Shown here piece by piece: positions 24,536 to 40,794 of a DNA stretch of 64,000 bases; the first letter of the stretch is position 1, and every line of letters begins with the position of its first letter. The position numbers were made by a program, and so were the translations under genes. The stretch is from Streptomyces sp. NBC_00464. Lineage in GTDB: Bacteria; Actinomycetota; Actinomycetes; Streptomycetales; Streptomycetaceae. The notes below the pieces were generated by a model. That model was not told the origin of the DNA, searched no databases, and was given only the letters and a program-made list of their open reading frames with translations. Where the stretch lies: positions 620,001 to 684,000 of the forward strand of contig NZ_CP107899.1 of NCBI RefSeq assembly GCF_036013915.1, read 5' to 3'.

Positions 24536-24546
24536 TCGTCCACGTT

Positions 24547-24876
24547 TCAGGCGGAGGCCGCGGGACGGCCCATGACGGCATCGGCAGCGCTGGGGAAACA
24601 AGCGACGCAGGCAACGTTGATCGAGTAAAGCATGGAGGTCCCCTGGCGTTCGCGCAGTACGAAGCGGACGTCGGCCAGGAGTTTCAGGTGGTGGGAGACC
24701 GTGGACTGCCCCACACCGACTCGCTCGACGATCTCGCCGACGTTCATCGCGCCAGGGGCGAGCGCGAGCAGGTTGAGGATCTGTACGCGGGTGGGGTCGG
24801 ACAGTGCTTTGAACCACGTCGCATAGGACTCGGCGGTGGCTCGGTCGATCAGCTGGGCGTTCAGTGTGCCGCTCAT
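24547..24876 (-). CDS. ArsR/SmtB-family repressor
   Basis: 109 residues with GVGQSTVSHHLKLLADV as recognition helix and a C-terminal CVAC pair (INVACVACFPSA), the inducer-binding position of a different ArsR subgroup from its downstream neighbour. It is divergent from the ArsP-like permease. A perfect CATCGA/TCGATG repeat lies 5 bases upstream of its start. Confidence 0.88.
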   Translation of the reverse strand: MSGTLNAQLIDRATAESYATWFKALSDPTRVQILNLLALAPGAMNVGEIVERVGVGQSTVSHHLKLLADVRFVLRERQGTSMLYSINVACVACFPSAADAVMGRPAASA

Positions 24877-25222
24877 GATCCATCGATGTTAGTCGATGGC
24901 GCGCGACAGAGGCAAGGTGCGTGCAACAGGCGACAGCACGCCGCACGACCACCGACGGAACGTTCGCGCCTATATGGACAAGAATCGATCCTGCCAAATC
25001 GGAGCCACCGGGAGGTCGGCCGAACCGCTTCCCACCCACAAGAGCCAGGGCCGATCGATCGGCCTGCATGAACAGGCCCTACAGGCCATTGCTCACCCGT
25101 TCTTTAATCGTCTATCATCGATATTCGATGAATGGGGGCGGGTTGTTGAGCCTCCCGTGCTGCCGACCGTGCAAGTTCGGCGAATTGACACCCGTGTGCC
25201 GCCTTCCCAGAGAGGTCCTCCT
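24877..25222. promoter_or_regulatory. Divergent promoter region of arsR and arsP
   Basis: 346 bases without a gene. Two similar operator-like sites are present, one at each end of the region: 24881-24898 (CATCGA-6-TCGATG, perfect) next to arsR, and 25115-25132 (TCATCGATATTCGATGAA) about 90 bases before the permease start. Their shared core suggests one ArsR binds both. Sequence between them shows nothing else. Confidence 0.6.
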
Positions 25223-26314
25223 GTGAGCGAAGTGCAGGCCCTGAGCCTGTTCATACTGCGCGAGTTGCTGCACTACCTCCCGTGGTTTCTGGTAGCCATC
25301 GTTCTGGGCATCGCCGTTCAGCGGCTGTCCATCGACGTGGTCGCCAAGCGCAGTTTCGCCAACGGCCGCGGAGGGATCCTCGGCATCGCGATCACCACGG
25401 CCATCGGCGCTTTCAGTCCGTTCTGCTCCTTCACCGTCATTCCGCTCATCCGGCGCTTTCTGATCGCTGGGGTCCCTCTGTCGGCCGTGATGGCCTTCTG
25501 GATCGCCTCCCCCGCAATGGACCCCGAGATCTATGCCCTGTCCGCCACGCAGCTCGGCCTTCCCGTAGCAACAGCGCGTCTGGTCGGCGCGCTGATCCTC
25601 AGCTTCGGGGCGGGTCTGATCGTCCTGGCAATGGAGCGCCGGGGGCGCTTCGCCAATCCGCTGCGCGAAGGCACCAAGGATTCGGCTCCTGCCAAGGCGT
25701 GCTCCCAGACGGCGGTCGAGGCCCCTGCATGCTCGGCGGTGCAGTCTCCTGCCCCGGTCTCGGTCGGCGCAGGTTCCGCTCCCGGAGCCGGCGAGCCTGC
25801 ACAGGATGCCTCCACCGGTACGAGCTCCTGCGAGGCGGCGGCGAATGCCCCCGACGAGGACGATGGCACGCCTTGGCGGATCCTGGTCAGGCGTGACATC
25901 AAGAATCTCAACGCGGTTGAGATCCTCAAGGAAATCGTCAGTGACTCGCTCATCCTGGGCCGCTGGCTGCTGCTGGCCATCGTGCTGGAAGCGCTGATCG
26001 TCCGCTACGTGCCGAGTGATGTCGTCAGCTCCATCCTGGGAACGGACGGCATCTTCTCCGTCCTGCTTGCCGGACTGATCAGTGTTCCGCTCTACCTCAA
26101 CGGCGTCGGAGCCATTCCGGTCGTCGAGGGCTTGATGAATCAGGGCATGGCGGCGGGCGCCGGCGTCACCTTCCTCCTGGGCGGTGCGATCACGACCATT
26201 CCCGCGATGGTCGCGGTCCGCAGCGTCGTGAAGGGCAATGTCTTCGCCTTCTACCTCGGCGTGGGCCTGGTGGGCAGCGTCGGCATCGGGCTGGCCGCCC
26301 TGCCGCTCCTGTAG
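25223..26314 (+). CDS. arsP: ArsP-like organoarsenical permease
   Basis: 363-residue permease of the DUF318/ArsP family, which exports trivalent organoarsenicals. Two membrane halves of about four segments flank a soluble linker of about 90 residues. Half one has the family stretch GAFSPFCSFTVIPLIRRFL and WIASPAMDP; half two has LYLNGVGAIPVV. The linker contains isolated Cys residues (KACSQT, APACSA, TSSCEA) in an Ala/Pro-rich context. GTG 25223 follows AGAGG; longer reading upstream is not conserved. It could export methylated or aminocarboxypropylated arsenicals made by this island. Confidence 0.85.
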   Translation: MSEVQALSLFILRELLHYLPWFLVAIVLGIAVQRLSIDVVAKRSFANGRGGILGIAITTAIGAFSPFCSFTVIPLIRRFLIAGVPLSAVMAFWIASPAMDPEIYALSATQLGLPVATARLVGALILSFGAGLIVLAMERRGRFANPLREGTKDSAPAKACSQTAVEAPACSAVQSPAPVSVGAGSAPGAGEPAQDASTGTSSCEAAANAPDEDDGTPWRILVRRDIKNLNAVEILKEIVSDSLILGRWLLLAIVLEALIVRYVPSDVVSSILGTDGIFSVLLAGLISVPLYLNGVGAIPVVEGLMNQGMAAGAGVTFLLGGAITTIPAMVAVRSVVKGNVFAFYLGVGLVGSVGIGLAALPLL

Positions 26315-26418: not shown

Positions 26419-27237
26419 TCAGGGCAGGTTGATGGGCAGCGTGATGCCGTCGAGTACTGCCGCGCAGCTGCAGGGGCGCGTGAGGTCGAGCTGGGCGATG
26501 GCCTCAAGAACCAGGCCCTTCAGCACTTCGACGTTCTCACCGAAGATGCGGAAGACCTCGTCCTGCGAGACACCGTCGCCTGCCTGTACGCCCGCGTCGT
26601 AGTCGGTGACCAGTGCGATCGGGGTATAGCACAGGGCCAGTTCGCGGGCCAGGACGGCTTCGGGGTGCCCGGTCATGTTGACCACGGACCAGCCGGACGA
26701 GGCGTACCAACGGGATTCGGCCCGGGTGGAGAATCTGGGCCCCTCGATGACCACCATGACGCCGCCGTCGTGGGCGGGGAGGCTGGTGCCGGCGGCGGCC
26801 TTGACCACGGTGGTGCGGCCGGCGGGGCAGTAGGGGTCGGCGAAAGGCACGTGGACCGCGCCTTCGTCGAAATAGGTCTGCACGCGCGAGGTGGTTCGGT
26901 CGACGAGTTGGTCCGGAATGACGATGCTGCCCGGTCCGAGCTCCGGGCGCAGCGATCCGACGGCGCAGGGTGCCAGAACCTGGCGTACTCCCAGTGAGCG
27001 CAACGCCCAGAGGTTCGCGCGGTAGTTGATGCGGTGGGGCGGGTGGCGGTGGTCGGTGCCGTGGCGGGCCAGGAAGGCGACCTGCCGGCCGGCGACCTTG
27101 CCCAGAGCTATCGGGTCGGAGGGCTCCCCGTAGGGGGTGGCGATGTGGACGAGCTGCGCACCGTCAAGGAGTGAGTAGAAGCCGCTGCCTCCGATGACGG
27201 CGATGTCGGCCTGCGGGCTGGGGGTGTGGGTGCTCAT
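26419..27237 (-). CDS. mtnP: S-methyl-5'-thioadenosine phosphorylase
   Basis: 272-residue purine nucleoside phosphorylase-fold enzyme converting MTA and phosphate to adenine and 5-methylthioribose-1-phosphate. Motifs: GGSGFYSLLDG, ARHGTDHRHPPHRINYRAN (phosphate and base site), and VNMTGHPEAVLARELALCY. It is the last gene of the eleven-gene operon, overlapping mtnC by 4 bases. It takes the first step of methionine salvage on the MTA that an ArsL-type reaction would release. Confidence 0.92.
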   Translation of the reverse strand: MSTHTPSPQADIAVIGGSGFYSLLDGAQLVHIATPYGEPSDPIALGKVAGRQVAFLARHGTDHRHPPHRINYRANLWALRSLGVRQVLAPCAVGSLRPELGPGSIVIPDQLVDRTTSRVQTYFDEGAVHVPFADPYCPAGRTTVVKAAAGTSLPAHDGGVMVVIEGPRFSTRAESRWYASSGWSVVNMTGHPEAVLARELALCYTPIALVTDYDAGVQAGDGVSQDEVFRIFGENVEVLKGLVLEAIAQLDLTRPCSCAAVLDGITLPINLP

Positions 27238-27974
27238 GGGCGGGATCCTTCGGCGTGCGTGGGAACGCCGGTTTGCGCGCCGGCCCGGATGAGAGGTGTC
27301 AGTGAGGTGAGCAGGCGATGGGCCGGAGGTGCGGGACGGGGGTCGTCCGGGCGGCGGACGGCGAGGGTCTGGAAGCCTGCGGTGGCCGCGGCATCCAGTT
27401 CTTCACCCGAGTCGCTGGCGAAGAGGACGAGCGCCGGTGGTGTGCGGATGGCTCTGGCGATGCTCAGGTAGGAGGCGGCATCGTGCTTGGGGCCGGCCGA
27501 GTTGAGGTCGAAGTGGCCGTCGAGGAGCAGGGTCAGGTCGCCGTGGGCGGTGTGGGCGAACCAGTCGCGTTGGGCGGCTTCGGAGCCTGAGGAGTAGATG
27601 TAGCGGGCGATGCCTTGTTCCCGCCAGGCGGCGAGGGCCGGCGGGACGTCCGGATAGACGTGACCGGTCAGTTCGCCGGCGGCGTATCCGGCTGCCCAGA
27701 TGTGGCCCTGGAGGTTCTTGAGGGGTGCTGCCTTGGTGTCGGTGTCGGCCCATTCTTCGAGCTGGGTGATCACATCGGTGGGGTCGAGTCGCGGGTCGCC
27801 GAGGTCGGTTCGGACTGCTTGGAGGATCTGCTGGCCCTGGTCGGTGTGGTGGTGGGCGGTTATCCACGGGGCGATGCGCGTGCGGGCGTAGGGGAAGAGC
27901 ACATCGCGGACGTGGGAGAGGGCGCCTGTGGTGCCTTCGATGTCGAGGAGGACTGCCTGGTGGTGCGGGTTCAT
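27234..27974 (-). CDS. mtnC: Acireductone synthase (enolase-phosphatase)
   Basis: 246-residue HAD-family enzyme making acireductone from 2,3-diketo-5-methylthiopentyl-1-phosphate. The nucleophile Asp is in LLDIEGTTG; IYSSGSEAAQRDWF carries the second HAD motif; FASDSGEELDAAATAG the acidic motif. It follows mtnD by one base and overlaps mtnP by 4. Confidence 0.92.
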   Translation of the reverse strand: MNPHHQAVLLDIEGTTGALSHVRDVLFPYARTRIAPWITAHHHTDQGQQILQAVRTDLGDPRLDPTDVITQLEEWADTDTKAAPLKNLQGHIWAAGYAAGELTGHVYPDVPPALAAWREQGIARYIYSSGSEAAQRDWFAHTAHGDLTLLLDGHFDLNSAGPKHDAASYLSIARAIRTPPALVLFASDSGEELDAAATAGFQTLAVRRPDDPRPAPPAHRLLTSLTPLIRAGAQTGVPTHAEGSRP

Positions 27975-27975
27975 G

Positions 27976-28551
27976 TCAGTCCTCGGCCAGCAGTGCGTCG
28001 AGGCGGGGGAAGGAAGCGGCGATGGGGTCTGCGGTGAAGTCGCCGACCCAGCCGTCCTCCTTTTCGAAGAAGCGGATGGCGGCGAAGTCCGGTACGGGGC
28101 CCATGTCGAACCAGTGCCGGGTGCCGGCGGGGACGGACAGGAGGTCGCCCGCCTCGCATACGACGGCGTGGACCTTGTCGTCCAGGTGCAGGTAGAAGCA
28201 ACCGGTGCCGTGGGCGAAGAACCTCACCTCGTCTTCGTCGTGACGGTGTTCTTCGAGGAACATCGAGCGGGCCGCGTCGGCACGCACGGCCCATGCGGGG
28301 CTGTCCTCGGGATGGAGTCGGGCCACGTCCACCAGACGCAGGCCCTGCTCGGCGCACAGGGCGTCGACCTCCTTGCGGTAGGTCTCCAGCAGGTCGGCGG
28401 GGGTGGTGGTGGGGGCGACCTTCAGCCGCACCGGCCAGCGGCTGAAGGACGCTCCATGTGTGCGCAGCATGTCGGTGATCTCGGCGGTGTCGCGGGTCCG
28501 GGTGAGGACGGTGCCGGGTGCTTCGACCGGCATGACCTGAAGGAGTGTCAT
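27976..28551 (-). CDS. mtnD: Acireductone dioxygenase
   Basis: 191-residue cupin. The metal ligands are in EEHRHDEDEVRFF (HxH and Glu) and the later GTRHWFD. With iron it yields 2-keto-4-methylthiobutyrate and formate, the direct precursor of methionine. Overlaps mtnB by 4 bases. Confidence 0.92.
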   Translation of the reverse strand: MTLLQVMPVEAPGTVLTRTRDTAEITDMLRTHGASFSRWPVRLKVAPTTTPADLLETYRKEVDALCAEQGLRLVDVARLHPEDSPAWAVRADAARSMFLEEHRHDEDEVRFFAHGTGCFYLHLDDKVHAVVCEAGDLLSVPAGTRHWFDMGPVPDFAAIRFFEKEDGWVGDFTADPIAASFPRLDALLAED

Positions 28552-29240
28552 GAGTGCTCCGCGGTGGGTGAGGTGTCAGGTGTGGTGGTGGTGCTCAGGG
28601 GCGTAGCTGCCAGGACCAGGAGCTGGCAGATCGCTTCCAGGCATTCGAGACGGTTGCGAGCCTGGGCAAGGGAGTTGCCCCAGGTGGTGATGCCGTGGTC
28701 GGCGATGAGCAGTCCGGGCGGAGCGCCGGGGGTGGCCGTGGCCCAGGCTGCGACGTTGTGGGCGATGCGGGGGACGTCGGGCCAGTTGACGAAGACGGGC
28801 ACGGTGGTCCGGGAGGGGTCGGCCAGACCGAGGCCCTTGAGGAGCTCGTAGCGTTCCAGGTGCAGAAGGCTGGTGTGCTGGGGGTGCTGGGCTCGGGTGG
28901 CGATGACGGTGGCGTACGGCGAGTGGACGTGGATGACGGCTTGTGCGTCGGTGGTGCGGTAGAGCGCGGAGTGGATGCAGGTTTCGGCCGAGGGGCGCTG
29001 GGACCCGGTGCGGACGGGTTCGCTGGTGTGGGCGTCGATCTCGACCATGTCCTGGTTGGTGAGTTCGCCCTTGTCCCGGCCGCTGGCTGTGATGAGGGCA
29101 CGCTGCGGCTGGTCGGGCAGGAGCATCGACAGGTTGCCTGCGGTGCCGGGCATCCAGCCCTGCTCGTACAGGTGGCGGCTGGTGGTGGCCAGTTGCCCGG
29201 CAGTTGTGCGGCCGGTGCTGGTGGCGGGTGCGTAGGTCAT
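28548..29240 (-). CDS. mtnB: Methylthioribulose-1-phosphate dehydratase
   Basis: 230-residue class-II aldolase-fold enzyme. Zinc ligands are in VIHVHSPYAT and in IADHGITTWG, and the N-terminal GWMPGTAGNLSM is family-typical. It dehydrates MTRu-1-P to the diketo compound used by MtnC. Overlaps mtnA and mtnD by 4 bases each. Confidence 0.92.
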   Translation of the reverse strand: MTYAPATSTGRTTAGQLATTSRHLYEQGWMPGTAGNLSMLLPDQPQRALITASGRDKGELTNQDMVEIDAHTSEPVRTGSQRPSAETCIHSALYRTTDAQAVIHVHSPYATVIATRAQHPQHTSLLHLERYELLKGLGLADPSRTTVPVFVNWPDVPRIAHNVAAWATATPGAPPGLLIADHGITTWGNSLAQARNRLECLEAICQLLVLAATPLSTTTTPDTSPTAEHS

Positions 29241-30259
29241 GCGTGGTCTCCCTTGGGCCAGGTGATGCCGTCCTCGGAGATGACCGCTGTGATCAGCTGG
29301 GCGGGGGTGGTGTCGAAGGCGGGGTTGAAGGCGCGGGTGGAGGCCGGCGCGGTGAGTTTCCCGGCGTAGTGGGTGACCTCGTGGGCGGGGCGCTGCTCGA
29401 CGACGATGTGACTGGCACCGGGGATCGTGGCATCACGGGTCGATTCGGGGGCCACGACGAAGAACGGGACGCCGTGGTGATGGGCGGCCAGGGCGAGGGC
29501 GTACGTACCGATCTTGTTGGCGACATCGTGGTTGGCGGCTATGCGGTCGGCTCCCACCAGGACGCAGTCGACCAGGCCCACTGCCATGGCGGTCGCGGCC
29601 GCGGAGTCCACGCACAGCCGGTGCGGGATGTCGGCCTCGGCGAGTTCCCATGTGGTCAGGCGGGCGCCTTGAAGGAGTGGTCTCGTTTCGCCCACCAGGA
29701 CTTCACGGACTCGGCCGGATTCGGCGAGGGCGAGGATGGTGCCCAGAGCGGTTCCGACTGCGGCTGTGGCAAGGCGGCCTGTATTGCAGTGCGTCCATAT
29801 GCTCAGCGGTTTGTCGGGGCAGGTAGAGGTGACTGCGTCGACGGCGTGCGTGACCATGCGCAGGTTGACGGCGATGTCCTGGTCCAGCATGTTCAAGGCT
29901 TCTGCCAGGACCGCGTCGGTGCCTTCGGGAAGGTGGTGCAGGACCCGGTTTACGGCCCAGGCGAGGTTGACGGCGGTGGGGCGCACGGCGACGAGCCGTT
30001 CTGCATCTGCCCGCACCGCTCCGGGGTCGGGTGCCGGTCCGGACAGATGGCGGCGAGCTGAGAGGGCCACGGCCAGGGCTCCGGCCAGTCCGATGGCCGG
30101 GGCTCCGCGGATGGCGAGGGTAGCGATGGCCTCGCTCACTTCCTCGACCGTGGTCAGCCGGATCTGCCGGGTCTCGTGAGGCAGGGCGCGCTGGTCGAGG
30201 GTGACGATCGTGCCGTCGTCCCAGGCCAGCGACGACTGCACGGTGCCGGGTGGGTTCAC
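29237..30259 (-). CDS. mtnA: Methylthioribose-1-phosphate isomerase
   Basis: 340-residue eIF2B-like isomerase. Motifs: EVSEAIATLAIRGAPAIG, SIWTHCNTGRLATA (catalytic Cys), ETRPLLQGARLTTWEL, and VLVGADRIAANHDVANKIGT (catalytic Asp). GTG start after AGGG. First of five mtn genes, 38 bases downstream of the ATP-grasp gene. An mtnE aminotransferase and mtnK kinase are absent; mtnK is not needed with MtnP. Confidence 0.93.
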   Translation of the reverse strand: MNPPGTVQSSLAWDDGTIVTLDQRALPHETRQIRLTTVEEVSEAIATLAIRGAPAIGLAGALAVALSARRHLSGPAPDPGAVRADAERLVAVRPTAVNLAWAVNRVLHHLPEGTDAVLAEALNMLDQDIAVNLRMVTHAVDAVTSTCPDKPLSIWTHCNTGRLATAAVGTALGTILALAESGRVREVLVGETRPLLQGARLTTWELAEADIPHRLCVDSAAATAMAVGLVDCVLVGADRIAANHDVANKIGTYALALAAHHHGVPFFVVAPESTRDATIPGASHIVVEQRPAHEVTHYAGKLTAPASTRAFNPAFDTTPAQLITAVISEDGITWPKGDHA

Positions 30260-30297
30260 TGGTGGGTGTCCCTTCGGGTTGGGCCTGTGCCGACGGT

Positions 30298-31932
30298 TCA
30301 GCTGGCAGGGGGCTGGGCTCGCAGTTCGATCAGTGCGCTCGGATCGGCGAGGTCGGCGGTCACCTGCTCGGGGTCCTCGCCGACGGCGATGACGTATCCG
30401 TAGCGGTTGAGGTAGGCGCGTGGCGGCAGGGCGAGTGCGGTACCGGGGCCGGCGGTGGCCACGGCGCGATGGATGGTGGGGCCGAGGCGGTCGGTCCGGA
30501 CGGTCACGGTGGCCGCGATGCAGTCCTGGGCCGGGTAGAGGAAGCGGATCGCGGCGGTGTTACCGGTGCGGGGTGTGGTGTCGGGGGCGAACCCGGCGGC
30601 CACGTGGGCGGCGGCGACTGCGGGGTCGGTGCCGGTGGCGAGGGCTCCGAGATAGGGGATGAAGTCACCGCCGAGCCGGGCGTTGATCTCGATCAGCCGG
30701 GGGCCGTGGGGGGTGAGTTTGAACTCGGTGTGCGTGGCGCCGTGGACGTAGCCGATCGCTTTGTGGATGCGGTTGAGCTGGTCGAGAAGTTCGGGGTCCT
30801 CCATGAGCGGGTCGGCGCCGTGGACGGTGTGTCCGATTTCCTCGAAGTAGGGGTTGCAGCCGACCTGCTTGCGGGCCAGGACCATCGGGGTGCAGACGCC
30901 TTCGGTGATGACGGCGTCGATGCTGATCTCCTCACCGGTGACCAGTTCCTCGATCAGGACGTCGGCTTCGTAGCGCGGCACTCCGGCGTAGGTGGCCCCA
31001 GCGGCGACCGTGTACGCCTGGCGGACGGCGGCCGGGGTGTCGGCGCGCAGGACGCCCATGCTTCCGGCGAGTCCGCGGGCCTTGACGACTACGGGGTATC
31101 CGATGGTCTCTGCTGCGGCGGTTGCCTCATCGGCGTCGGCCACGGGGATGGATGCCGGTTGCGGGATCTCGGCTTCGGTGAGGAGGGCGCGGGTGGTTGC
31201 CTTGTCTCGGCAGGCCAGGACCGCGCGCGGCGGGCTGCCGGGCAGGCCGAGGGTCTGGGCGAGCTGCGCGGCGGCGTGCACCAGTGACTCGTCGTAGGTG
31301 AAGACCCCCACGACGGGAAGAGCGGCGGCGACGGGACCAGCAGCTTCGTACAGGGCGCGGACGTCTTTGGTGTTCAGCACCGTGGCGCCTTCGATGTACG
31401 GAAGTTGCCAGGTGGGCTCGTAGGCATCCAGGAGCCAGAGGCGGAAGTCACGGGTGATCGCGGCGAGGATGTACTCGCGATAGCGGCGGTCTCCGCTGCC
31501 GATGAGCAGGAGGACGGGGGCCGGCGTGTCGCCGGTGGGCGGGGTGGTGGCGTCCATTTCGGGCCTCTTGATGGGCGTGTGACCGTCGGGGTGATCGGCT
31601 GCGGTGCGGGGACTGGCGCGGCCGGGGTGGTAGGGGCCGTTGCCGGTGAGGAGACCTGCGGGGAGTTGGGTGAGGCAGTGGTCGTCGAGGCTGTAGAGGA
31701 TGCTGGTTCCGGCTCGGGCGGTGGTGAGGAAGCGGGCCTGGCGCAGGATCTTGAGGTGGTGGGAGACCGTCGACTGGCTGAGCTTGAGGTGGTCGACGAT
31801 GACGCCCGCTGGTACCGGGCGTTCCTGCCGGCTGACGAAACGCACGATGAGAATGCGTGTCGGGTCGGCGAGGGCCTGGAACCAGCGGGCGTACTCCTCG
31901 GCGGTTGCCCGCTCGAGTGAGGGCTCGTGCAC
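30298..31932 (-). CDS. ArsR domain fused in frame to an ATP-grasp ligase
   Basis: 544 residues in one uninterrupted frame. Residues 1-100 are an ArsR winged-helix domain (LKLSQSTVSHHLKILRQARF, no obvious Cys pair; one Cys in DDHCLTQLP). Residues 100-125 are a Pro/Thr-rich linker. From Met126 (31557) an ATP-grasp ligase follows, with lid GYPVVVKARGLAGSMGV, metal-site Glu/Asn at RLIEINARLGGDF and a preceding EFKLT. ATP-grasp enzymes of this shape join a carboxylate to an amine, for example in dipeptide formation. Met126 has its own AGAGG site 8 bases upstream, so a separate ligase may also be made. GTG start. Sits between the PiT and mtnA genes. Confidence 0.85.
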   Translation of the reverse strand: MHEPSLERATAEEYARWFQALADPTRILIVRFVSRQERPVPAGVIVDHLKLSQSTVSHHLKILRQARFLTTARAGTSILYSLDDHCLTQLPAGLLTGNGPYHPGRASPRTAADHPDGHTPIKRPEMDATTPPTGDTPAPVLLLIGSGDRRYREYILAAITRDFRLWLLDAYEPTWQLPYIEGATVLNTKDVRALYEAAGPVAAALPVVGVFTYDESLVHAAAQLAQTLGLPGSPPRAVLACRDKATTRALLTEAEIPQPASIPVADADEATAAAETIGYPVVVKARGLAGSMGVLRADTPAAVRQAYTVAAGATYAGVPRYEADVLIEELVTGEEISIDAVITEGVCTPMVLARKQVGCNPYFEEIGHTVHGADPLMEDPELLDQLNRIHKAIGYVHGATHTEFKLTPHGPRLIEINARLGGDFIPYLGALATGTDPAVAAAHVAAGFAPDTTPRTGNTAAIRFLYPAQDCIAATVTVRTDRLGPTIHRAVATAGPGTALALPPRAYLNRYGYVIAVGEDPEQVTADLADPSALIELRAQPPAS

Positions 31933-31940
31933 GAGGGTGG

Positions 31941-33020
31941 TTAGCGGGCCACCAGGAAGACCAGGGCGGCTACCGCTGCGGCGAAGGGTGGGGTCACCAG
32001 CCAGGCGATGAGGAAGTGACGCAGTGTCTTGCCGCTCAGACGGTTGAGGTTGGCCCCGGCCGAGCCCGCGATGGCGCCCGTCGAGGTGTGGGTGGTGGAC
32101 ATGGGCAGCCCGTAGCCGGCGCCGAGGCCGACCAGGGTGGCGGTGGTGATGTTGGCCATGAACCCTTCGCGGTGGTTCATGCGGATGACGCCTTCACCCA
32201 GGCGCTGGGCCAGGCGCATGCCACCGGTGAGGGAACCGAGGGCCATCGCTCCGGAGACCAGGAGCATGATTTGCCAGGTCGTCATGCCGGCCGGGACCAG
32301 GGCGAACGCGCCGATGGCGACGATCTTGGGGGTGTCGTTGAGGCCCCGGGCGAAGCCGGTGGCACCGCTGGTGAGCCAGTGCGCGGCGGCCAGGACGCGC
32401 CCGGCGGGGGGCTCGGTGGCGGTGGTCGGGGCGGCGTTGACGCGTTCGGCGGCCAGCACGGCTCCGCCCTCGCCTGCCGGGGTGGCCGGGGATGCGGGTT
32501 CGGCGGTCGCTTCCGGCTCAGTGGTGGGGGGCTTGGAGGCGGCGCCGCGGTTGAAGACCAGGGCCAGGATCAGGGATATGGCGTAGGCGATGCCGATGCT
32601 GACGAGCAGCGGGATGATGAGCTTCTCCGGAATGGCGCTCCAGGCGATGGAGTCGGATGCGAGCAGCATCCCGGCGCCCAGGAGGGCGCCGATCAGGGCG
32701 TGGGTGGTGGAGACGGGCAGGCGCAGGACGGTCGCGAGGGCGACCCAGGCGACCGCGCCGGCGAGCACGGCGACGGCGAATGCGTCGGTCGGTTCAGCGG
32801 TGACGATGCCCGCGGAGAAGAGCTTGGTCATGCGGTCGGCCAGGGCCAGGGAGCACAGGCATCCGGCGAGGGTGGTGACGGTGCCCCACACAATGGCGGT
32901 GCGGTACTTGGTCACCCCCGCCCCGGCGAGGGTGGCGACGCCTTTGGGGACGTCATTGCTGCCGTTGGCGGCGGCAAGGGCCGCTACCAGGATGAAAACG
33001 AGCACGACAGTGAAAGACAT
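31941..33020 (-). CDS. PiT-family phosphate (possibly arsenate) transporter
   Basis: 359-residue membrane transporter with the two PiT signature repeats, AAANGSNDVPKGVATLAG at the N-terminus and GFARGLNDTPKIVAIG in the second half, separated by an Ala/Pro-rich cytoplasmic loop. PiT systems carry metal-phosphate and also admit arsenate. ATG 33020 begins MSFTVVLVFIL; longer in-frame sequence lacks conservation. It lies within the ArsL operon, 8 bases before the ArsR-ATP-grasp gene. Arsenate uptake as a substrate supply is an inference; phosphate import for MtnP is another. Confidence 0.88.
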   Translation of the reverse strand: MSFTVVLVFILVAALAAANGSNDVPKGVATLAGAGVTKYRTAIVWGTVTTLAGCLCSLALADRMTKLFSAGIVTAEPTDAFAVAVLAGAVAWVALATVLRLPVSTTHALIGALLGAGMLLASDSIAWSAIPEKLIIPLLVSIGIAYAISLILALVFNRGAASKPPTTEPEATAEPASPATPAGEGGAVLAAERVNAAPTTATEPPAGRVLAAAHWLTSGATGFARGLNDTPKIVAIGAFALVPAGMTTWQIMLLVSGAMALGSLTGGMRLAQRLGEGVIRMNHREGFMANITTATLVGLGAGYGLPMSTTHTSTGAIAGSAGANLNRLSGKTLRHFLIAWLVTPPFAAAVAALVFLVAR

Positions 33021-33090
33021 GGCGGTGTCTCCAGTGTGTGAAGGGGCCGCGGCCATCAGGGGGCCGCGGCCCGGAATCCGGCGGTGCGGA

Positions 33091-33888
33091 TCAGCAGCAG
33101 GTGCCCCCGGGGGCACACTCCTGCGGAGCGTCGGCTTCGCTGTCGACGGGCTTGCGGGCGCGGATGATGGCGGCGTGCAGGCCGTCCGCGGCTTCCTGGG
33201 TGAAGACGATCTCGGTGTCCTTCAGGCCCACAGCGTCCAGGAGTTCGCGGTACTCCCCCACCGACAGGGCGCCTGCGATGCACTGACTGTGCCCGCCGCG
33301 CTGGGCCCGCTCGTCGGGACTGAGGCGGTCCTCGGCCACGACGTCGCTGATGCCCAGGCGTCCGCCGGGGGCCAGCACGCGGGCCATCTCGGCGAACACG
33401 GCCGGCTTGTTCAGCGACAGGTTGATCACGCAGTTGGAGATGATGACGTCGACGGTCTTCGCGGGCAGCGGAATGGACTCGATGGTGCCCTTGAGGAGGA
33501 CCACGTTGTCGATCTCGGCGTCCTCGATGTTGCGGGCCGCCAGAGCGAGCATCTCCTCAAGGAAGTCCAGCCCGAAGACCCGCCCGTCGGGGCCGACGCG
33601 GCGTGCGGACAGGATCACGTCCAGTCCGCCACCGGAGCCCAGGTCCAGAACCGTTTCGCCTTCCCGCAGTTCGGCGACCGCGCTGGGGTTGCCGCAGCCC
33701 AGGGAAGCGAGCAGGGCGGTGTCCGGTGCGGCGCCGGGGCCGATCTCGTCGTAAGCGGCGGGGCCGAAGGTATTGGGGTCGGGGGAACAGCAGGCGCCAC
33801 TGGTCTCGGCCTCTTCGGCCTTGGCGCGGTAGTAGGCGCGGACCTCTTCCTGCAAGGTGCCCGAGGCCGTGGTGGTGGTGTCACTCAT
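33091..33888 (-). CDS. arsM: Arsenite S-adenosylmethionine methyltransferase
   Basis: 265-residue class-I methyltransferase. SAM site LDLGSGGGLDVILSA; the conserved arsenic-binding Cys residues are in GACCSPD (33-34), NCVINL (153) and SQCIAG (203). It ends in APGGTCC, two more thiols. ArsM methylates As(III) and, in arsinothricin synthesis, hydroxyarsinothricin to arsinothricin. Here it is the fourth gene of the ArsL operon, which favours the biosynthetic role; general arsenite methylation is the alternative. Confidence 0.93.
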   Translation of the reverse strand: MSDTTTTASGTLQEEVRAYYRAKAEEAETSGACCSPDPNTFGPAAYDEIGPGAAPDTALLASLGCGNPSAVAELREGETVLDLGSGGGLDVILSARRVGPDGRVFGLDFLEEMLALAARNIEDAEIDNVVLLKGTIESIPLPAKTVDVIISNCVINLSLNKPAVFAEMARVLAPGGRLGISDVVAEDRLSPDERAQRGGHSQCIAGALSVGEYRELLDAVGLKDTEIVFTQEAADGLHAAIIRARKPVDSEADAPQECAPGGTCC

Positions 33889-33912
33889 GTCTGAAGTCCT
33901 TGAGGAAGGGGG

Positions 33913-35025
33913 TCAGGCGCCGGCGGGGGCGAGGCGGTGGACCGGGCGGGGATAGGACGGCTTGAAGGAGACCGGTGCGGTCGCGGAGGACATGACCTGG
34001 TGGCTGTCGTCGGCGGCTTTGACCGCTGCGGTGACGGCCTGGTCGAGGGCCTCGGGCTCGCAGGCGACGCGGGCGTTGACGACCGCCCGGCCGGCCGCGG
34101 CATGGGCAGCCGCGGCGCGGTCGCACGTGGGGTCGGCTCCTGCCTGGGTGCAGCTGAGCTTGGCGAAGTCCCCGTCGGGCAGCTCCACGGTGAGCTTGGC
34201 ATGCCCGATCACCGCGTCGCTCTCCTGTGCCCAGCGGGAGAGCCCGGCCAGTACGGTGCCGGCCCAGGCGGTGGCGTCGAAGCCGGTGCCCGCCACTGCT
34301 GCGGTGAGGTCGAGTTCCTGGTTCATCCAGGCCAGTTGCGCCTCGGCGGCGGCATAGCGGTCGTAGTCGATGTCGAGCTGGACATCCTGGTTGGTCGCCG
34401 GTGCCTGCCAGGCGTCGGTGAGGTCCTCAAGTCCGGCACCAGTGGTGGCGGAGTAGCCCACAACAGTGGCGTTGGGGTACTGGGCGGCCAGGTCCTTCAG
34501 CAGAGTCTCGGCCCGCGGCGCCGGGATGGTGTCGAGTTTGTTGACGGCGATGACGTCGGCTTCGGTGAGCTGCTGGCGGAACAGGTAGGAGAGGTCCGAT
34601 TCCGGTTCGGCTCGCTGGGCCGCGCGCTCGAAGGCCAGGTGGCGCAGCGGGTCGACGACCGTGGTGAGGGGGGCGACGACCATGCTGTCGCCGTAGTACT
34701 GGCGCAGCGGGCGCACGACGGTGGCCTGCAGGTCGGTGCAGGAGCCGACGGCCTCGGCGATCACGACGTCGACTCCGTCGGAGTCGACCAGGGCGACGAC
34801 GGCCTCGACGAGGTCCTCGAACTTGCAGCAGAAGCATCCGCCGGTGACTTCAGCGACGCTGCCGAGTTTGCTGCGGACCAGTTTGGTGTCGACCAGCTCG
34901 ACGCCCTGGTCGTTCGTGATGACGGCGACTTTGCGGCCGGTTTCCTGCAGGGCCAGCGCGGTTGCGGTCATGGTGGTGGTCTTGCCCGCCCCGAGGAACC
35001 CGGTCAGCGGAATGAACGTGATCAT
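33913..35025 (-). CDS. CobW/COG0523-type GTPase, putative metallochaperone
   Basis: 370-residue G3E GTPase. Walker A GFLGAGKTT at residues 8-16, the metal-binding motif GGCFCCKF near residue 63, and NKLD as the guanine-specificity motif. The C-terminal half is not the usual CobW_C in any way I can recognise, with Cys residues in KLSCTQAGADPTCDR and RVACEPE. Such proteins insert or deliver metals to target enzymes. Located between the transferase and ArsM genes, it may hand As(III) or a cofactor metal to ArsL or ArsM; that is inference. Confidence 0.85.
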   Translation of the reverse strand: MITFIPLTGFLGAGKTTTMTATALALQETGRKVAVITNDQGVELVDTKLVRSKLGSVAEVTGGCFCCKFEDLVEAVVALVDSDGVDVVIAEAVGSCTDLQATVVRPLRQYYGDSMVVAPLTTVVDPLRHLAFERAAQRAEPESDLSYLFRQQLTEADVIAVNKLDTIPAPRAETLLKDLAAQYPNATVVGYSATTGAGLEDLTDAWQAPATNQDVQLDIDYDRYAAAEAQLAWMNQELDLTAAVAGTGFDATAWAGTVLAGLSRWAQESDAVIGHAKLTVELPDGDFAKLSCTQAGADPTCDRAAAAHAAAGRAVVNARVACEPEALDQAVTAAVKAADDSHQVMSSATAPVSFKPSYPRPVHRLAPAGA

Positions 35026-35064
35026 GTCGTTCCTTCTGGTCCGATTCGAAAGCCTGGGAGGGGG

Positions 35065-36333
35065 TCAGCCGGTGGAGCAGCAGCCCCCGTCCGGGCTCTG
35101 GCCGAGCAGGGTGAGGGGTGCGGGCTGGGAGGGTGCGGCTGTCGTGTCACCGAACGCGATGCGGCGGCTGGCGCCAAAGGCATCCAGCCAGGTGGCAGCC
35201 TGGGGACGTAGGTCGGGGTCGGACAGCACCAGAGTGGTGGTGACCTTCCTCGGGGTGCAGCCGCGCAGGGCCTTGGCCTGGTGGGCGCCCGCGCCGAACT
35301 CCACGGTGCGCAGCCCTTCGGCGTAGGCGTCCTTGACGGGTGCGTCCAGGACCAGGGCGAAGTAGATGCCGCTGCGTTCGCCGATCGCGGCGTAGTCGAA
35401 GCCGGCCCACTTGGGGAACAGGCGGTGGTTCTTGCGTACGGTGACGCAGGTGGCGACCAGGGCGCCGTCCTTGTAGCCGAGGTAGGCGCGTACGTCGGCG
35501 CCCTCGTCGATCAGCGTGGTGAGGATGCCGGCGATGTGCCCGGGCTCCTCGCCCGCACCGTTCTTCTCCCGGTTGAGGCAGGTCAGTTCGGCGATCCGGG
35601 CCGTGTAGGGGCGGATGTTCTCGCCGTCGACACGCTCGATGGTGACGCCTGCCGCCAGGGCGCGGCGCACGTCACCCTTGATGCGCTGGCGCTTCTTCAG
35701 CGGCAGCGCGGCCAGGTGTCCTTCCCAGCTGCCCGCGTCCAGGCTCATGAAGTCCTCGAAGCCCCAGAAGGCGCTGTGACCGCCGGCCGCGTTCAGTGCG
35801 GTGACCAGGGCCTCGTTGCCTCGCCTGTCGGGTATCCACGGGGCGGCGATGCAGCGGATGCCCGCCTCGAAGGCCGCCGGGACGAGCTTGTCGACGATCG
35901 CACCCATGAGGGTGGGCGTCCAGAAGTTGTAGGCGACCTCTGTGCGGTAGCCCAGCGGAGACCCGAGCAGGAGGGTCGGGAAGAACGGCTCAGTACCCAG
36001 GGCGTCGACTGCCGCGCTGCGGGCGGCATCCGTCTCCGCGCCGCAGCACACTTCCTCACCGCTGGGGGCCTGCCAGCCCAGGTAGGTGCGCGGCTCGTGG
36101 TCGACGACAGGCGGGTTGGTGATGATGTATCCCGGCAGCAGGGCCAGTTCGCCCCGCGCGCGGGTGGCGATCGTGTGCCAGGGCTGGGCCTCGGGCAGGA
36201 CCTTCTCCGTGGCCCGCAGCCAGGTGGGTCCCAGGTAGGGCCAGGAGTCGGTGAGGCGGTCGAGTTCGCCGGACCAGTCCATGTCGGGCAGGGTCTGGCC
36301 GGTGGAGATGACGATGCGGGGTGATCCACCCAT
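35065..36333 (-). CDS. GNAT/FemAB-like transferase with CC tail
   Basis: 422-residue protein of the peptidoglycan biosynthesis/recognition (COG3146-like) GNAT group. The central KKRQRIKGDVRRALAAGVTIER resembles the substrate loop of FemAB and related aminoacyl transferases, and later blocks YLGYKDGALVATCVTVRK and VEFGAGAHQAKALRG are typical. It ends in DGGCCSTG. In a cluster making an amino-acid arsenical, it could acylate or aminoacylate the product; no substrate is evident. It is second in the operon, 30 bases after arsL. Confidence 0.75.
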   Translation of the reverse strand: MGGSPRIVISTGQTLPDMDWSGELDRLTDSWPYLGPTWLRATEKVLPEAQPWHTIATRARGELALLPGYIITNPPVVDHEPRTYLGWQAPSGEEVCCGAETDAARSAAVDALGTEPFFPTLLLGSPLGYRTEVAYNFWTPTLMGAIVDKLVPAAFEAGIRCIAAPWIPDRRGNEALVTALNAAGGHSAFWGFEDFMSLDAGSWEGHLAALPLKKRQRIKGDVRRALAAGVTIERVDGENIRPYTARIAELTCLNREKNGAGEEPGHIAGILTTLIDEGADVRAYLGYKDGALVATCVTVRKNHRLFPKWAGFDYAAIGERSGIYFALVLDAPVKDAYAEGLRTVEFGAGAHQAKALRGCTPRKVTTTLVLSDPDLRPQAATWLDAFGASRRIAFGDTTAAPSQPAPLTLLGQSPDGGCCSTG

Positions 36334-36363
36334 GTCAGTGTCCTTCGCGTGTGAGGGGGCGGG

Positions 36364-37614
36364 TCAGCACTTCACGCAACAGCGGATCTTGCCTGCGTCC
36401 TCGGCATCGGTGCGCCGGTCCTGCCACAGTTCCTCGACGCGCTTGTCGGGGTGGGTCCACTCCACCCAGAAACCGCGGTCGACGGTGGCGATGTCTTCCA
36501 TCCACGGCGAGGACAGCAGCGGGGACCCCTTGAACAGCAGCAGCCGCGTCTGCAGAGCCGTGGGGTCGGTGACCCGGGCCAGCCCCGTCTCCACCAGCCA
36601 GTCCTCGAACCCGAGGAGTTCCTCGTACTCGATCCATGGCGTGAAGGGAATGAAGGTGGGAAACAGCTCGAAGCCGATGCGTTCGGCTTCCGCCACCGCC
36701 TGCTTCATGTGGTCGACGTCGATGTGCTTGTCGAAGATCCGCAGGATTCGGTTGGAGGGGAACTCCAGCGCGCACGTCACCTTGCGCAGGCCCAGCGAGA
36801 CGAGCTTCTGCAGTTCCTTGGTGTAGTCCAGGACGTGGTCGACGCGGGTGGTGAACTCGAACGTGATCGGCCCGATCGCCTCGACGAGCCGCTCGACGAC
36901 ACCGACACCAATGGTGCGGGAGTTGAAGAACTCCGCGTCGATGAAGCAGAAGTGCCGTACGCCTTCCTCGGCCAGTTGCAGGGCGTCGGCCAGGACGGTG
37001 TCGCCGTCGAAGGCTGCCACCCCGCCGTCATAGGCCCCGTACACCGAGCAGTAGGTGCACTTGTGGTGGCAGCCGCGGGACGCCTCAATGTTGCCCATCA
37101 GCCCGTACGGGGTGTGGTGGGCCGGGTAGTGCACCAGCGAGGGGAACAGCTCCCTGGCCGGGGCGGCCACGCTGATCCGGCGGCGCGGCGGCTTGGGACG
37201 CATCCCGCCGGCTGTCATGAGCGCCGGCACCTCGCCCAGGGGCATGGTCCCGGAAGCGAGGTGGACCAGGTCCTCGGCGATCAGTTCCGGCTCCTCCATC
37301 GCCACCCCGCTCACGACCTGGAGGAATTCACGATGATTCATCTGCGCGTACTGGCCGAACGTCACCACCAGGGTGCCGTACGCCTCGCTGACACGCCGGG
37401 CCAGGGCGATACCGCGCTCCAGACCCTCGAACTGCTGCACCGAGACCAAGGTGAGATCGAACGGGCCCTCAGGCAATGCGTCAGGCTGCAGATGGGCGTC
37501 CCAGCCCACCACGTCAGCGCCGTGATCACGCAGAGCAGCCGCCACGCAGGCAGAGGTCAGAGGTTGGAGCTCCGCCTCGAAAGCAGAAGCCACGAGCACA
37601 CGGGGTGTGGTCAC
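36364..37614 (-). CDS. arsL: ArsL-like non-canonical radical SAM enzyme
   Basis: 416 residues. An N-terminal B12-binding-like region (VLVASAFEAELQP, residues 5-120) is followed by a radical SAM core with CX3CX2C at Cys172, 176 and 179 (RGCHHKCTYCSV). The protein ends exactly in RCCVKC (411-416). The arsinothricin enzyme ArsL of Burkholderia gladioli is of this type and is described as having an RCCLKC C-terminal motif; it moves the 3-amino-3-carboxypropyl group of SAM to As(III), leaving MTA. GTG start. It is the first gene of an operon that also holds ArsM and a full MTA-recycling set, which strongly supports the call. Confidence 0.85.
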   Translation of the reverse strand: MTTPRVLVASAFEAELQPLTSACVAAALRDHGADVVGWDAHLQPDALPEGPFDLTLVSVQQFEGLERGIALARRVSEAYGTLVVTFGQYAQMNHREFLQVVSGVAMEEPELIAEDLVHLASGTMPLGEVPALMTAGGMRPKPPRRRISVAAPARELFPSLVHYPAHHTPYGLMGNIEASRGCHHKCTYCSVYGAYDGGVAAFDGDTVLADALQLAEEGVRHFCFIDAEFFNSRTIGVGVVERLVEAIGPITFEFTTRVDHVLDYTKELQKLVSLGLRKVTCALEFPSNRILRIFDKHIDVDHMKQAVAEAERIGFELFPTFIPFTPWIEYEELLGFEDWLVETGLARVTDPTALQTRLLLFKGSPLLSSPWMEDIATVDRGFWVEWTHPDKRVEELWQDRRTDAEDAGKIRCCVKC

Positions 37615-37998
37615 ACGTCCCCCCAGGGAGTGGTCAGAGTGAGCGACGAAACAGCCGGGCCGGCAGAGACCCGGGCCTGGTCGGTGACGGCCCTGTCAGT
37701 CCGACGGCGGAACACTCCCAGCATTAAACGATGTATGTCAATAGATCGATGAATAGCTGGTACGCACCCCCGGACAGTGGCGCAATGTGACACCCTCCCG
37801 GTGGCGCGATCCGATCCATGCAGCACGGAAGGCCCGGTCACCGGTGCAAACGGCCAGAGTTGGCGTTTCGCAAATGCGGTCCGGCGCACCGAACTCCCCA
37901 GGTCACGCGGTCCGCAAAGGCATGGGGTGAAGAGGGTTAGCAACCATTGAGCTGGGGTAGCACCAGCGTCATTGAATCGGCGTACTTCGATGTACCTG
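37615..37998 (-). promoter_or_regulatory. Promoter region of the arsL-mtnP operon
   Basis: 384 bases upstream of arsL with no gene. A markedly AT-rich patch at 37722-37760 contains TTGACA on the minus strand (37736-37741) and the 9-mer TCGATGAAT, which also occurs in the operator-like repeat before arsP (25.12 kb). No well-spaced -10 is evident. An ArsR of this island may therefore control the operon. Confidence 0.5.
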
Positions 37999-38030
37999 CC
38001 GTTCCGGAGCAGCACACTGCTCCGGAACGG
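37999..38030 (-). terminator. Terminator hairpin between arsR and the arsL promoter
   Basis: Perfect 13-base-pair stem CCGTTCCGGAGCA with a 6-base loop, 99 bases beyond the stop of the arsR gene at 38129. It should stop arsR transcripts before they enter the arsL operon. Confidence 0.75.
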
Positions 38031-38128: not shown

Positions 38129-38437
38129 TTACGGGCAGGGGCGCCGGGCGTTTCCGGCGTTGTACACACTCTGCGCCAGGCCGCCGAAGAAGGATGCGAG
38201 TGCTTCAAGCGCCTCGGGCCGGACCTTGTAGTAGGTGAAGCGGCCACACGGTTCGGTCTCCACCACACCTGCCTCACGCAACACCCGCAGATGGTTGGAG
38301 AGGTTGGTCTGGCGCGCACCGGTCTCGGCCACCAGATGCGTCGTACACAACGCCTCCCGGGCCAGCAACGTCACAATCCGCAGCCTGAGCGGGTCCGCAA
38401 GCGCCCGCACAACCTCAGCGTCGACCGATGTCAGCAT
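38129..38437 (-). CDS. arsR: ArsR-family repressor (second arsR-arsC pair)
   Basis: 102 residues, nearly a copy of the ArsR at 21458: LCTTHLVAETGARQTNLSNH, EPCGRFTYYK and a final RRPCP. No clear Shine-Dalgarno before the ATG, again like its paralogue. Divergent from arsC with an operator-like repeat between. Confidence 0.9.
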   Translation of the reverse strand: MLTSVDAEVVRALADPLRLRIVTLLAREALCTTHLVAETGARQTNLSNHLRVLREAGVVETEPCGRFTYYKVRPEALEALASFFGGLAQSVYNAGNARRPCP

Positions 38438-38442
38438 GAGAT

Positions 38443-38458
38443 TGATGGTGACACATCA
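38443..38458. promoter_or_regulatory. Putative ArsR operator, second arsR-arsC pair
   Basis: TGATG and CATCA with 6 bases between, starting 6 bases upstream of arsR. It occupies the same place as the perfect repeat before the first arsR. Confidence 0.5.
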
Positions 38459-38513
38459 GGATCATCCGCGAGGCAGACCACCGGGCACACACCCATACCA
38501 ACAGGAGCAAACA

Positions 38514-38921
38514 ATGCCCGTCAGACCGTCCGTACTGTTCGTCTGCATCCACAACGCCGGCCGCTCCCAGATGGCCGCTGCCTGGCTCCGCCACCTCGCC
38601 GGCGACCGCATCGAGGTCCGCTCCGCCGGCTCCGCACCCGGTGACACGGTCAACCCGGCCGCGGTGGAGGCCATGGCAGAGGTCGGCATCGACATCTCAG
38701 ACCAGGCACCGAAGATCCTCACCGTCGACGCGGTAAGGGCTTCGGACGTCTGCATCACGATGGGCTGCGGGGACACGTGCCCCGTCTTCCCCGGCAAGCG
38801 CTACCTCGACTGGCAGCTCGAAGACCCCGCCGGACAGGGCGTCGCAGCAGTCCGCCCTATCCGCGACGAAATCAGAACCCTCGTCGAAGCCCTCATCAAG
38901 GAAATCGACCCAACCTCGTAA
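38514..38921 (+). CDS. arsC: Arsenate reductase, second copy
   Basis: 135 residues, differing from the 21859 copy mainly at the ends. P-loop CIHNAGRSQ, distal thiols VCITMGCGDTC. ATG 38514 follows ACAGGAGC. Unlike the first copy it has no arsT behind it and must share the reductase in trans. It could supply As(III) to the adjacent arsL operon; that is inference. Confidence 0.92.
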   Translation: MPVRPSVLFVCIHNAGRSQMAAAWLRHLAGDRIEVRSAGSAPGDTVNPAAVEAMAEVGIDISDQAPKILTVDAVRASDVCITMGCGDTCPVFPGKRYLDWQLEDPAGQGVAAVRPIRDEIRTLVEALIKEIDPTS

Positions 38922-38924
38922 CGC

Positions 38925-39296
38925 CTAGTGCGGCACGAGGGAGCCAAAGACGCGGTCCTGCAAGTCTCGCAGCGCTGAGGGAACCAGGGAGAACCAGGCC
39001 CACGTGCCTCGCTGCTCACGCGCAAGAAGACCGGCCATCGCCAGAATCTTAAGATGACGGCTCACCGCGGGCTGGCTCAGCCCCAGCGAATCCGTCAGGT
39101 CACACACGCACAACTCTCCTGCAGGGGCCTGCTGGATCAAATGAAGAATCTGCAGCCTGGCCGGATCGGCCATGGCTTTCAGCCCAGCCACCCTCAGCTC
39201 AACCTCGTCACGAGTGATGAGGTCCCCAGACGGTCCCGGCGAGCAACTCCCCTGCCCTACTGGACTTATACGTAAGTTTGAAGCAGCAACGACCAT
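38925..39296 (-). CDS. ArsR-family repressor (ELCVCDL type)
   Basis: Up to 123 residues with the classical metalloid motif ELCVCDL followed by GLSQPAVSRHLKILAMAG. Convergent with arsC (3-base gap). The first 30 residues are atypical and overlap an ACTTA/TAAGT inverted repeat at 39264-39277, so the true start may be downstream, for example GTG at 39191. Eighth ArsR domain of the island. Confidence 0.82.
   Translation of the reverse strand: MVVAASNLRISPVGQGSCSPGPSGDLITRDEVELRVAGLKAMADPARLQILHLIQQAPAGELCVCDLTDSLGLSQPAVSRHLKILAMAGLLAREQRGTWAWFSLVPSALRDLQDRVFGSLVPH
39264..39277. promoter_or_regulatory. Short inverted repeat near the arsR start
   Basis: ACTTA-TACG-TAAGT, within the first codons of the annotated arsR frame. 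If it is an operator, the gene starts further in. Confidence 0.35.
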
Positions 39297-40323: not shown

Positions 40324-40426
40324 GGTCTGAAGATACGAGGAGACTCTGACACCGTCATGGCCTTTACCGACAAGGGCGCTCAACTCAGGGATGTGCTCAG
40401 ACCGAGCCGAAGCCTTTGGGCCTGAG

Positions 40427-40630: not shown

Positions 40631-40794
40631 GGCGGCGTTGCCCTGTTCGTGGAACTGAGCAGCCGACAAGGCCCCTCACCTCCGCGCCCGGGGCAAAGGT
40701 GAACCCCCTGCGCCCCCGCTCGCCACGAGAAAGCACAGGCGCGCCGGTTACCACCCTTGCATACACGGCGGAGCCGTCCATAGGGCAACCGCGA

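Follow-up and report, generated by a model that had tools for sequence, protein, structure and literature searches.

Arsinothricin is a new type of antibiotic, for which a 2021 paper describes one producer and a three-gene cluster; according to that description, the ArsL of Burkholderia yields hydroxyarsinothricin in E. coli, where the known pathway requires only arsL and arsM, and a pitA gene lies near the known cluster (PMC8552651). For bisenarsan, BsnM, which resembles 5-enolpyruvylshikimate-3-phosphate (EPSP) synthase, and BsnN, which resembles phosphoglycerate mutase, are proposed to form the carbon–arsenic (C–As) bond without S-adenosylmethionine (SAM) (PMC12159101). Among phosphonopeptides, the phosphonoalamides are attributed to two ATP-grasp ligases, dehydrophos and argolaphos to a tRNA-dependent GNAT enzyme, and phosphinothricin tripeptide to a non-ribosomal peptide synthetase (PMC11867202). 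The DNA considered here, the window, is a stretch of 64,000 nucleotides covering 620-684 kb of an 8.47-Mb contig in the 8.96-Mb genome of Streptomyces sp. NBC_00464. It carries an eleven-gene operon, running leftward from arsL (37614) to mtnP (26419), in which a radical SAM enzyme gene of the ArsL family is joined to the genes for salvage of methylthioadenosine (MTA).

With a probability of about 70%, the operon is a co-regulated unit that makes an arsenical amino acid of the arsinothricin type and recycles the by-product itself; the amino acid is probably released in the form of a short arsenopeptide. An arsenical product with linked, co-regulated MTA salvage is very probable, and the chances of a peptide product are about even.

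The arsL-to-mtnP operon

Each of the eleven genes is an open minus-strand frame; they are listed in the direction of transcription, after the operator (scores in bits, with cut-offs):

37729..37748, minus strand: 20-bp palindromic operator CGATCTATTGACATACATCG, lying over a TTGACA −35-like element (37736-37741), with a −10-like GAGTGT at 37712-37717
36364..37614, minus strand: arsL, radical SAM enzyme with CX3CX2C at residues 182/186/189 and a C-terminal RCCVKC (NF040542, 482 vs 450)
35065..36333, minus strand: FemAB/FemX-like transferase (femAB) with Cys pairs at 96-97 and 418-419 (FemAB_like and GNAT family calls)
33913..35025, minus strand: CobW/G3E-type GTPase with a CXCC motif (PF02492, 99.5 vs 20.7)
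33091..33888, minus strand: arsM-like As(III) methyltransferase with conserved Cys 33-34, 65, 153 and 203 (PRK11873, 243 vs 263)
31941..33116, minus strand: PiT-family (PHO4) transporter of the phosphate/arsenate type, whose true start may be later (PF01384, 191 vs 33.7)
30298..31932, minus strand: ArsR helix-turn-helix (HTH) and ATP-grasp ligase of the L-amino acid ligase (LAL) type in one frame (PF01022, 45.6 vs 22; PF13535, 49.2 vs 27)
29237..30259, minus strand: mtnA (TIGR00512, 366 vs 279)
28548..29240, minus strand: mtnB (TIGR03328, 177 vs 137)
27976..28551, minus strand: mtnD, acireductone dioxygenase (PF03079, 96 vs 27)
27234..27974, minus strand: mtnC, acireductone synthase (TIGR01691, 226 vs 128)
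26419..27237, minus strand: mtnP, MTA phosphorylase (NF005876, 446 vs 306)

The sequence-only reading had described this leftward operon with gaps of up to 70 bp. All frames are confirmed, the gaps are at most 39 bp throughout, and the three 4-bp overlaps claimed for the mtn genes are present (mtnP/mtnC, mtnD/mtnB and mtnB/mtnA). mtnC and mtnD are spaced by 1 bp, and the pit and arsM frames overlap by 26 bp as called. A single transcript for the eleven genes is plausible. On the minus strand, terminator-like sites are confined to the leader of arsL (37674-37655) and the very beginning of its frame (37603-37590), and they are as numerous as in shuffled sequence. The range 26419..37614 first proposed is right for the eleven genes and too narrow for the cluster, as the operator lies upstream and an ars island extends on both sides. 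A 134-residue frame upstream of arsL (37611-38015) was not taken as a gene, because it matches no family and overlies the operator.

The identification of ArsL is borne out by the curated family score, 32 bits over the cut-off, and the name is already present in public Streptomyces annotation. The three cluster cysteines and three tail cysteines are invariant in 29/29 sequences, and the CCxxC tail is common to the window protein and the ArsL of L025, a control that is a true arsQML locus by its scores (ArsQ 515/480, ArsM 511/500, ArsL 662/450). The structure prediction for ArsL drew on 32 of 120 listed relatives and three loci. Of 392 Streptomyces genomes, 142 have a loose ArsL match (E 0.001), as do 10 of 14 control genomes, and only the ten genomes over the curated cut-off are counted here as ArsL-positive. 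The best near-miss (G381) was assigned to the CUAEP family. The chemistry of ArsL is reportedly the subject of Yao et al. 2024 (JACS).

The locus is not a known arsQML locus with extra genes. No match to ArsQ/GntP was found among the eleven operon genes, the remaining genome not having been searched for it, and the arsinothricin-type ArsM families are not matched (NF040538, 110 vs 500 bits; NF040539, 60 vs 240). It probably works like an arsQML locus without being one, and the cluster is taken as a new variant of the arsinothricin type.

Conserved neighbourhood, shared operator and methionine salvage

The locus scan, which took one genome per species from 84,980 species and gave 28 loci, is no census, because it detects close relatives only. 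The same neighbourhood is found in other actinomycetes: femAB follows arsL in 22/22 actinobacterial loci, then cobW in 21 and then arsM in 19. The fetched flanks of six proteobacterial loci gave no femAB match, and in Vogesella (L027) an ATP-grasp ligase gene lies upstream of ArsM-ArsL.

The operator CGATCTATTGACATACATCG is the sole site in the window within three mismatches, where 0.02 are expected. It precedes arsL within two mismatches in 18 of the 22 actinobacterial loci and with three in L021; no site within four mismatches was found before arsL in L017, L020 and L022. Among the 392 Streptomyces genomes, a site within one mismatch occurs in 11, namely all ten ArsL genomes and G082, alone among the 382 others. 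In eight ArsL genomes, arsL and the ATP-grasp(-mtn) unit are separated, with an operator at each; the second copy stands ahead of the ATP-grasp gene (at 102-118 bp from its start in the seven measured, by position in G143), and mtn genes are present at this unit in six of the eight. The window genome (G000) and G085 have the genes run together behind a single copy. The two arrangements are interpreted as a single regulon made up of two units, which in the window have merged into one operon; the operon's own ArsR is a candidate repressor. A strict sigma-70 promoter scan gave no match, and the −10 element of the operator promoter is a putative one. Searching the ten ArsL genomes in full at up to two mismatches gave one extra site, with two mismatches, in the window's own genome. 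Stray operator-like sites away from any ArsL known here stand at G000:C1:67045-67064 (two mismatches) and G082:C1:6330368-6330387 (one mismatch).

Universal methionine salvage runs in the order mtnP-A-B-C-D. All five families are over curated cut-offs in the window (MtnD in Pfam only, with no NCBIfam match), and the motifs expected of MtnA, B, C, D and P are all present; MtnD matches the E-2/E-2' protein 1zrr (E 1e-42). The genome has a second mtnA (C1:4841276, 338 bits) and a second mtnP (C1:4553710, 63%). Its sole over-cut-off mtnB and mtnC are those of the operon (runners-up at 66 and 22 bits), as is its sole mtnD match. No gene for the closing transaminase, mtnE, was found among the eleven; a general aminotransferase could substitute for MtnE. 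The sequence-only reading had explained the salvage genes by a flux high enough to need separate MTA recycling, which is a supposition, and two of the ten ArsL genomes have no mtn set beside ATP-grasp. A simpler reason also fits: with its only over-cut-off mtnB, mtnC and mtnD all in the cassette, the genome would leave MTA at a dead end without it.

The functional link itself holds up, through conservation across ArsL genomes as well as the shared operator. Over the cut-offs, ArsL is found in 10 and MtnC in 68 of the 392 genomes, MtnC being present in 9/10 ArsL genomes and 59/382 ArsL-negative ones (Fisher p 8e-7, kinship ignored). In eight of the ten, mtnC lies downstream of arsL on the same strand, at 8.4-13.7 kb, and is the only over-cut-off MtnC of that genome. 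The 14 Streptomyces loci of the species scan, partly from the same genomes, have mtnC on the arsL contig in nine cases and on another contig in two (L002, L012), with no match in L001, L013 and L014. Seven of the nine loci L109-L117 have the order ATP-grasp, mtnA, B, D, C, P, followed by convergent arsN1-like and arsP genes. In the MtnC tree, the cluster proteins form a group of 19 rows, 14 of them distinct, with support of 100/99 and separate from the remaining 12 rows, among which 11 are distinct; the MtnD tree gives the same picture with weaker support (90/83). Two lone mtnC genes fall into the cluster group, in G304 and in G321, a 78% complete genome with no over-cut-off ArsL. At L129 and L121, an mtnC of this group has no other mtn match in the 15-20 kb fetched; these are perhaps relics or borrowed copies.

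Beyond Streptomyces, Lentzea has an ArsL 59% identical to that of the window (442 bits). Its arrangement is a different one, with femAB, OsmC-like and ABC transporter genes, arsR, arsP, an mtnA-mtnB fusion and mtnD all on the strand of arsL, and a further mtnA-C-B-D set lies elsewhere. The mtnA-C-B-D genes upstream of arsL in Amycolatopsis pretoriensis (L016/L128) group with housekeeping sets and were not counted as an independent link. A second set of that species (L125, G407:C24), mtnAB fusion-mtnD-mtnC, adjoins genes for methyltransferase-like and alanine-dehydrogenase-like proteins and possibly serves another MTA-releasing pathway.

Predicted product, ars island and competing explanations

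In the proposed mechanism, ArsL would transfer the aminocarboxypropyl radical of SAM onto As(III), giving hydroxyarsinothricin and MTA, and ArsM would methylate the arsenic. The FemX-type protein would then add an amino acid from an aminoacyl-tRNA and the ATP-grasp ligase form another peptide bond, as their folds, families and conservation suggest. MtnP, A, B, C and D, assigned by sequence family, would convert MTA to methionine's keto acid. Arsenic would switch the set on through an ArsR-type repressor bound to the 20-bp operator, and export by the ArsP-type permease together with acetylation by the ArsN1-like protein would protect the producer. The paired cysteines of the FemX-type protein and the CCxxC tail of ArsL may hold trivalent arsenic, and the PiT transporter presumably carries arsenate.

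The double-GNAT fold of FemX is predicted for the FemAB-like protein, with 56 of 120 listed relatives as input. A search of its profile against the PDB gave weak unrelated matches only. K354, which may correspond to the catalytic K305 of FemXWv, is kept in 113 of 121 cases. Relatives at E 1e-30 or better occur in 19/392 Streptomyces genomes, comprising all ten ArsL genomes (86% identity or more) and nine ArsL-negative ones (48-51%). In these nine, EPSP synthase, iPGM, aminotransferase and ArsP permease genes lie within the 20 kb fetched in 9/9 cases, and a second kind of organoarsenical cluster is predicted there (L150-L158), its likeness to BsnM and BsnN being judged by domain content only. 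Hoshino et al. 2023 (JACS) reportedly deals with bisenarsan. The nine Streptomyces loci, whose FemAB relatives are 45-51% identical, also have ArsR, glutamine-amidotransferase-like and LuxR-type genes nearby. The EPSP-synthase/iPGM pair has no domain match in the eleven operon genes and no tblastn match in 31 related fetched loci (L001-L022, L109-L117), some from the same genomes.

The occurrence of related transferases in two unrelated C–As pathways suggests that their substrate is an arsenical amino acid. Tentatively, and at somewhat less than even odds, this extends to a family of arsenopeptide antibiotics, in which Cys-paired FemX-type transferases aminoacylate arsenical amino acids from both pathways and methionine salvage, coupled through the operator, serves the ArsL branch as a module recycling the MTA of ArsL. 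One branch would lead through the ArsL radical SAM enzyme to arsinothricin-type products, the other through BsnMN-like enzymes and an aminotransferase, perhaps to arsonoalanine.

The ligase of the operon is an ATP-grasp protein, as first read, and not a stand-alone one, since the same frame opens with the ArsR HTH. Its ATP-grasp domain is L-amino-acid-ligase-like by PF13535 and close to the L-amino acid ligase 3vot (E 1.9e-15); LAL_C2 is sub-threshold (26.2 vs 29.4). An internal ATG near residue 126 could yield separate proteins. A stop separates ArsR from ATP-grasp in 9 of 11 loci inspected (L001, L003, L005, L006, L009, L010, L013, L015, L113); L018 reads through as in the window, and L012 has no stop within the 140 codons inspected after ArsR. 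ATP-grasp relatives at E 1e-60 or better are common (132/381 genomes), and only the class at 70% identity or more tracks ArsL. In the CobW protein, Cys96 is kept in 121/121 close relatives; a role as an arsenic-specific ligand was rejected because YjiA carries a Cys at the aligned position.

The earlier suggestion that the product is perhaps ligated further fits the FemX-type fold and the LAL-type ATP-grasp domain. Alternatively, the product could be plain arsinothricin, with the FemAB-like protein as an acetyl-CoA-type self-resistance acyltransferase and the ATP-grasp protein in another role, such as making a storage or resistance dipeptide. Pfam additionally calls the GNAT domain Acetyltransf_6 on the FemAB-like protein, N-acetylation is a known arsinothricin resistance (PMC6465285), and arsL and arsM suffice in E. 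coli (PMC8552651). This alternative is unlikely.

The ars island flanks the operon on both sides, with ACR3-like, two ArsC-like, thioredoxin reductase, ArsP-type, several ArsR and ArsN1-like GNAT genes:

38129..39296: upstream ars genes by Pfam, namely ArsR (38129-38437, minus strand), ArsC-like (about 38514-38912, plus strand) and ArsR (38925-39296, minus strand)
24896..26314, plus strand: ArsP_1-type permease, candidate exporter, convergent with the operon (PF03773, 144.5 vs 32.3)
24146..24876, minus strand: two ArsR-family regulators, one at 24547-24876 and the other seen as an HTH in a different frame, at about 24272-24415 (PF01022, 52.4 and 49 vs 22)
23532..24032, plus strand: ArsN1-like GNAT protein, a putative acetyltransferase for self-resistance (119 bits to ArsN1a, its best family, vs 170)
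21859..23276, plus strand: low-molecular-weight-phosphatase-type ArsC-like protein and thioredoxin reductase (PF01451, 71.7 vs 23.2; TIGR01292, 367 vs 343)
20349..21467, minus strand: SBF-family protein, which we take to be an ACR3-like arsenite exporter (PF01758, 194.7 vs 24.3)

An ArsP-type permease lies downstream on the opposite strand in 9/9 loci L109-L117, and relatives of the ArsN1-like protein (67-73% identical) adjoin mtnP or ATP-grasp in all nine. In A. pretoriensis (L128, 1738-2598, minus strand), an ArsR fused to an ArsN1-like acetyltransferase follows ATP-grasp (ArsN1a, 146 bits, cut-off 170). An Abi_C protein and an IS110 transposase adjoin the island (39463-42187, minus strand). 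Farther off, 47210-54186 (minus strand) encodes a tryptophanase-family protein (PRK13238, 615 bits), a weak match to Trp dimethylallyltransferase, and P450-like and small-GTPase-like proteins, perhaps a separate prenyl-indole cluster.

This setting would also suit a detoxification system without antibiotic function, in which arsenite is turned into an organoarsenical of lower toxicity and exported; a role in detoxification is proposed for bisenarsan too (PMC12159101). Simpler genes for that purpose (ACR3-like, ArsC-like, ArsP-like) already adjoin the operon, and the ArsN1-like gene points to a product harmful to its own producer; detoxification is improbable on this evidence. The mtn genes might, in turn, be a passenger, a salvage set that came to lie next to ATP-grasp and works for sulfur metabolism in general. 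Their presence between ATP-grasp and arsN1/arsP does vary in otherwise similar clusters, MtnC occurs in the ArsL-negative genomes counted above, and G304 and G321 have cluster-type mtnC with no other mtn matches nearby. What makes a passenger quite improbable is that the mtn unit carries the operator of arsL, which has no match in the regions surrounding the second mtnA and mtnP of the genome (L119, L120), that gene order is kept in 7/7 mtn-bearing loci of L109-L117, and that Lentzea has a separate mtn set in its arsL gene row. Canonical 5'-deoxyadenosyl radical chemistry of ArsL on arsenic, giving an arsenosugar-like product with MtnP and MtnA processing the nucleoside, is very improbable, as the protein belongs to the curated ArsL family and shares the invariant tail with the ArsL of L025, and mtnC and mtnD would be pointless in the familiar salvage pathway.

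Several observations weigh against an arsenopeptide operon with its own MTA recycling. The window ArsL is only 34-41% identical to proteobacterial ArsL, the ArsL proteins of Lentzea and Microbispora are slightly under the cut-off (442 and 448 vs 450 bits), ArsM misses its cut-offs, and ArsQ is unmatched in the operon. No sequence-level match or alignment of FemX with the FemAB-like protein was obtained, and four ArsN1-like proteins fall under the ArsN1 cut-off (119-146 vs 170), with ArsN1 still their best family. As for the mtn genes, the flanks of the six proteobacterial loci gave no match, L110 (G304) and L117 (G370) keep ATP-grasp, arsN1-like and arsP and lack all five at that place, and the G085 mtnP match is partial (L109, 12819-13217, only residues 27-160 of the window protein), so that this gene may be shortened or broken. 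The arsL-linked set of Lentzea is a partial one, because no mtnC lies near arsL; no mtnP was found in the fetched flank either. The MtnC tree was flagged for long branches by the program, and the Streptomyces counts are not independent, because the clusters are close kin.

Relation to known systems

Some natural arsenic antibiotics, this cluster suggests, are more elaborate than the three-gene version. Its recurrence in Streptomyces and other actinomycetes predicts elaborate relatives, the arsenopeptides, and names candidate enzymes, while the operator provides a DNA signature for locating such clusters. The MTA salvage module makes sense if ArsL releases MTA, and its linkage offers a genetic reading of ArsL chemistry; the role of FemX-type enzymes in arsenic chemistry becomes testable. 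In the open-access literature searched, neither the extended cluster nor the operator was found described, and nor were the mtn and FemAB links.

The window set agrees with universal MTA salvage in its five families and their motifs; it differs in being part of a natural-product operon and under the operator of that operon, with no mtnE there. With the arsQML cluster of Burkholderia gladioli GSRB05, as described, it has in common the ArsL family, an operon arsM, the ars setting and a PiT-type gene (PMC8552651). Unlike that cluster, the operon has no ArsQ match and an ArsM not of the arsinothricin type, and it adds the FemX-type transferase, CobW GTPase, ATP-grasp ligase and mtnABDCP, with a two-operator layout in relatives. 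Bisenarsan is likewise a Streptomyces arsenical product, and the FemAB relatives of the genus outside the ArsL clusters adjoin bsnM-like and bsnN-like genes in 9/9 loci; for bisenarsan, the C–As bond is proposed to form without SAM (PMC12159101). A parallel in assembly is with the phosphonopeptides, in which, as described, a heteroatom-acid amino acid is extended by ATP-grasp or tRNA-dependent enzymes (PMC11867202); the window cluster, with its predicted product, would have arsenic in place of phosphorus and both enzyme types together.

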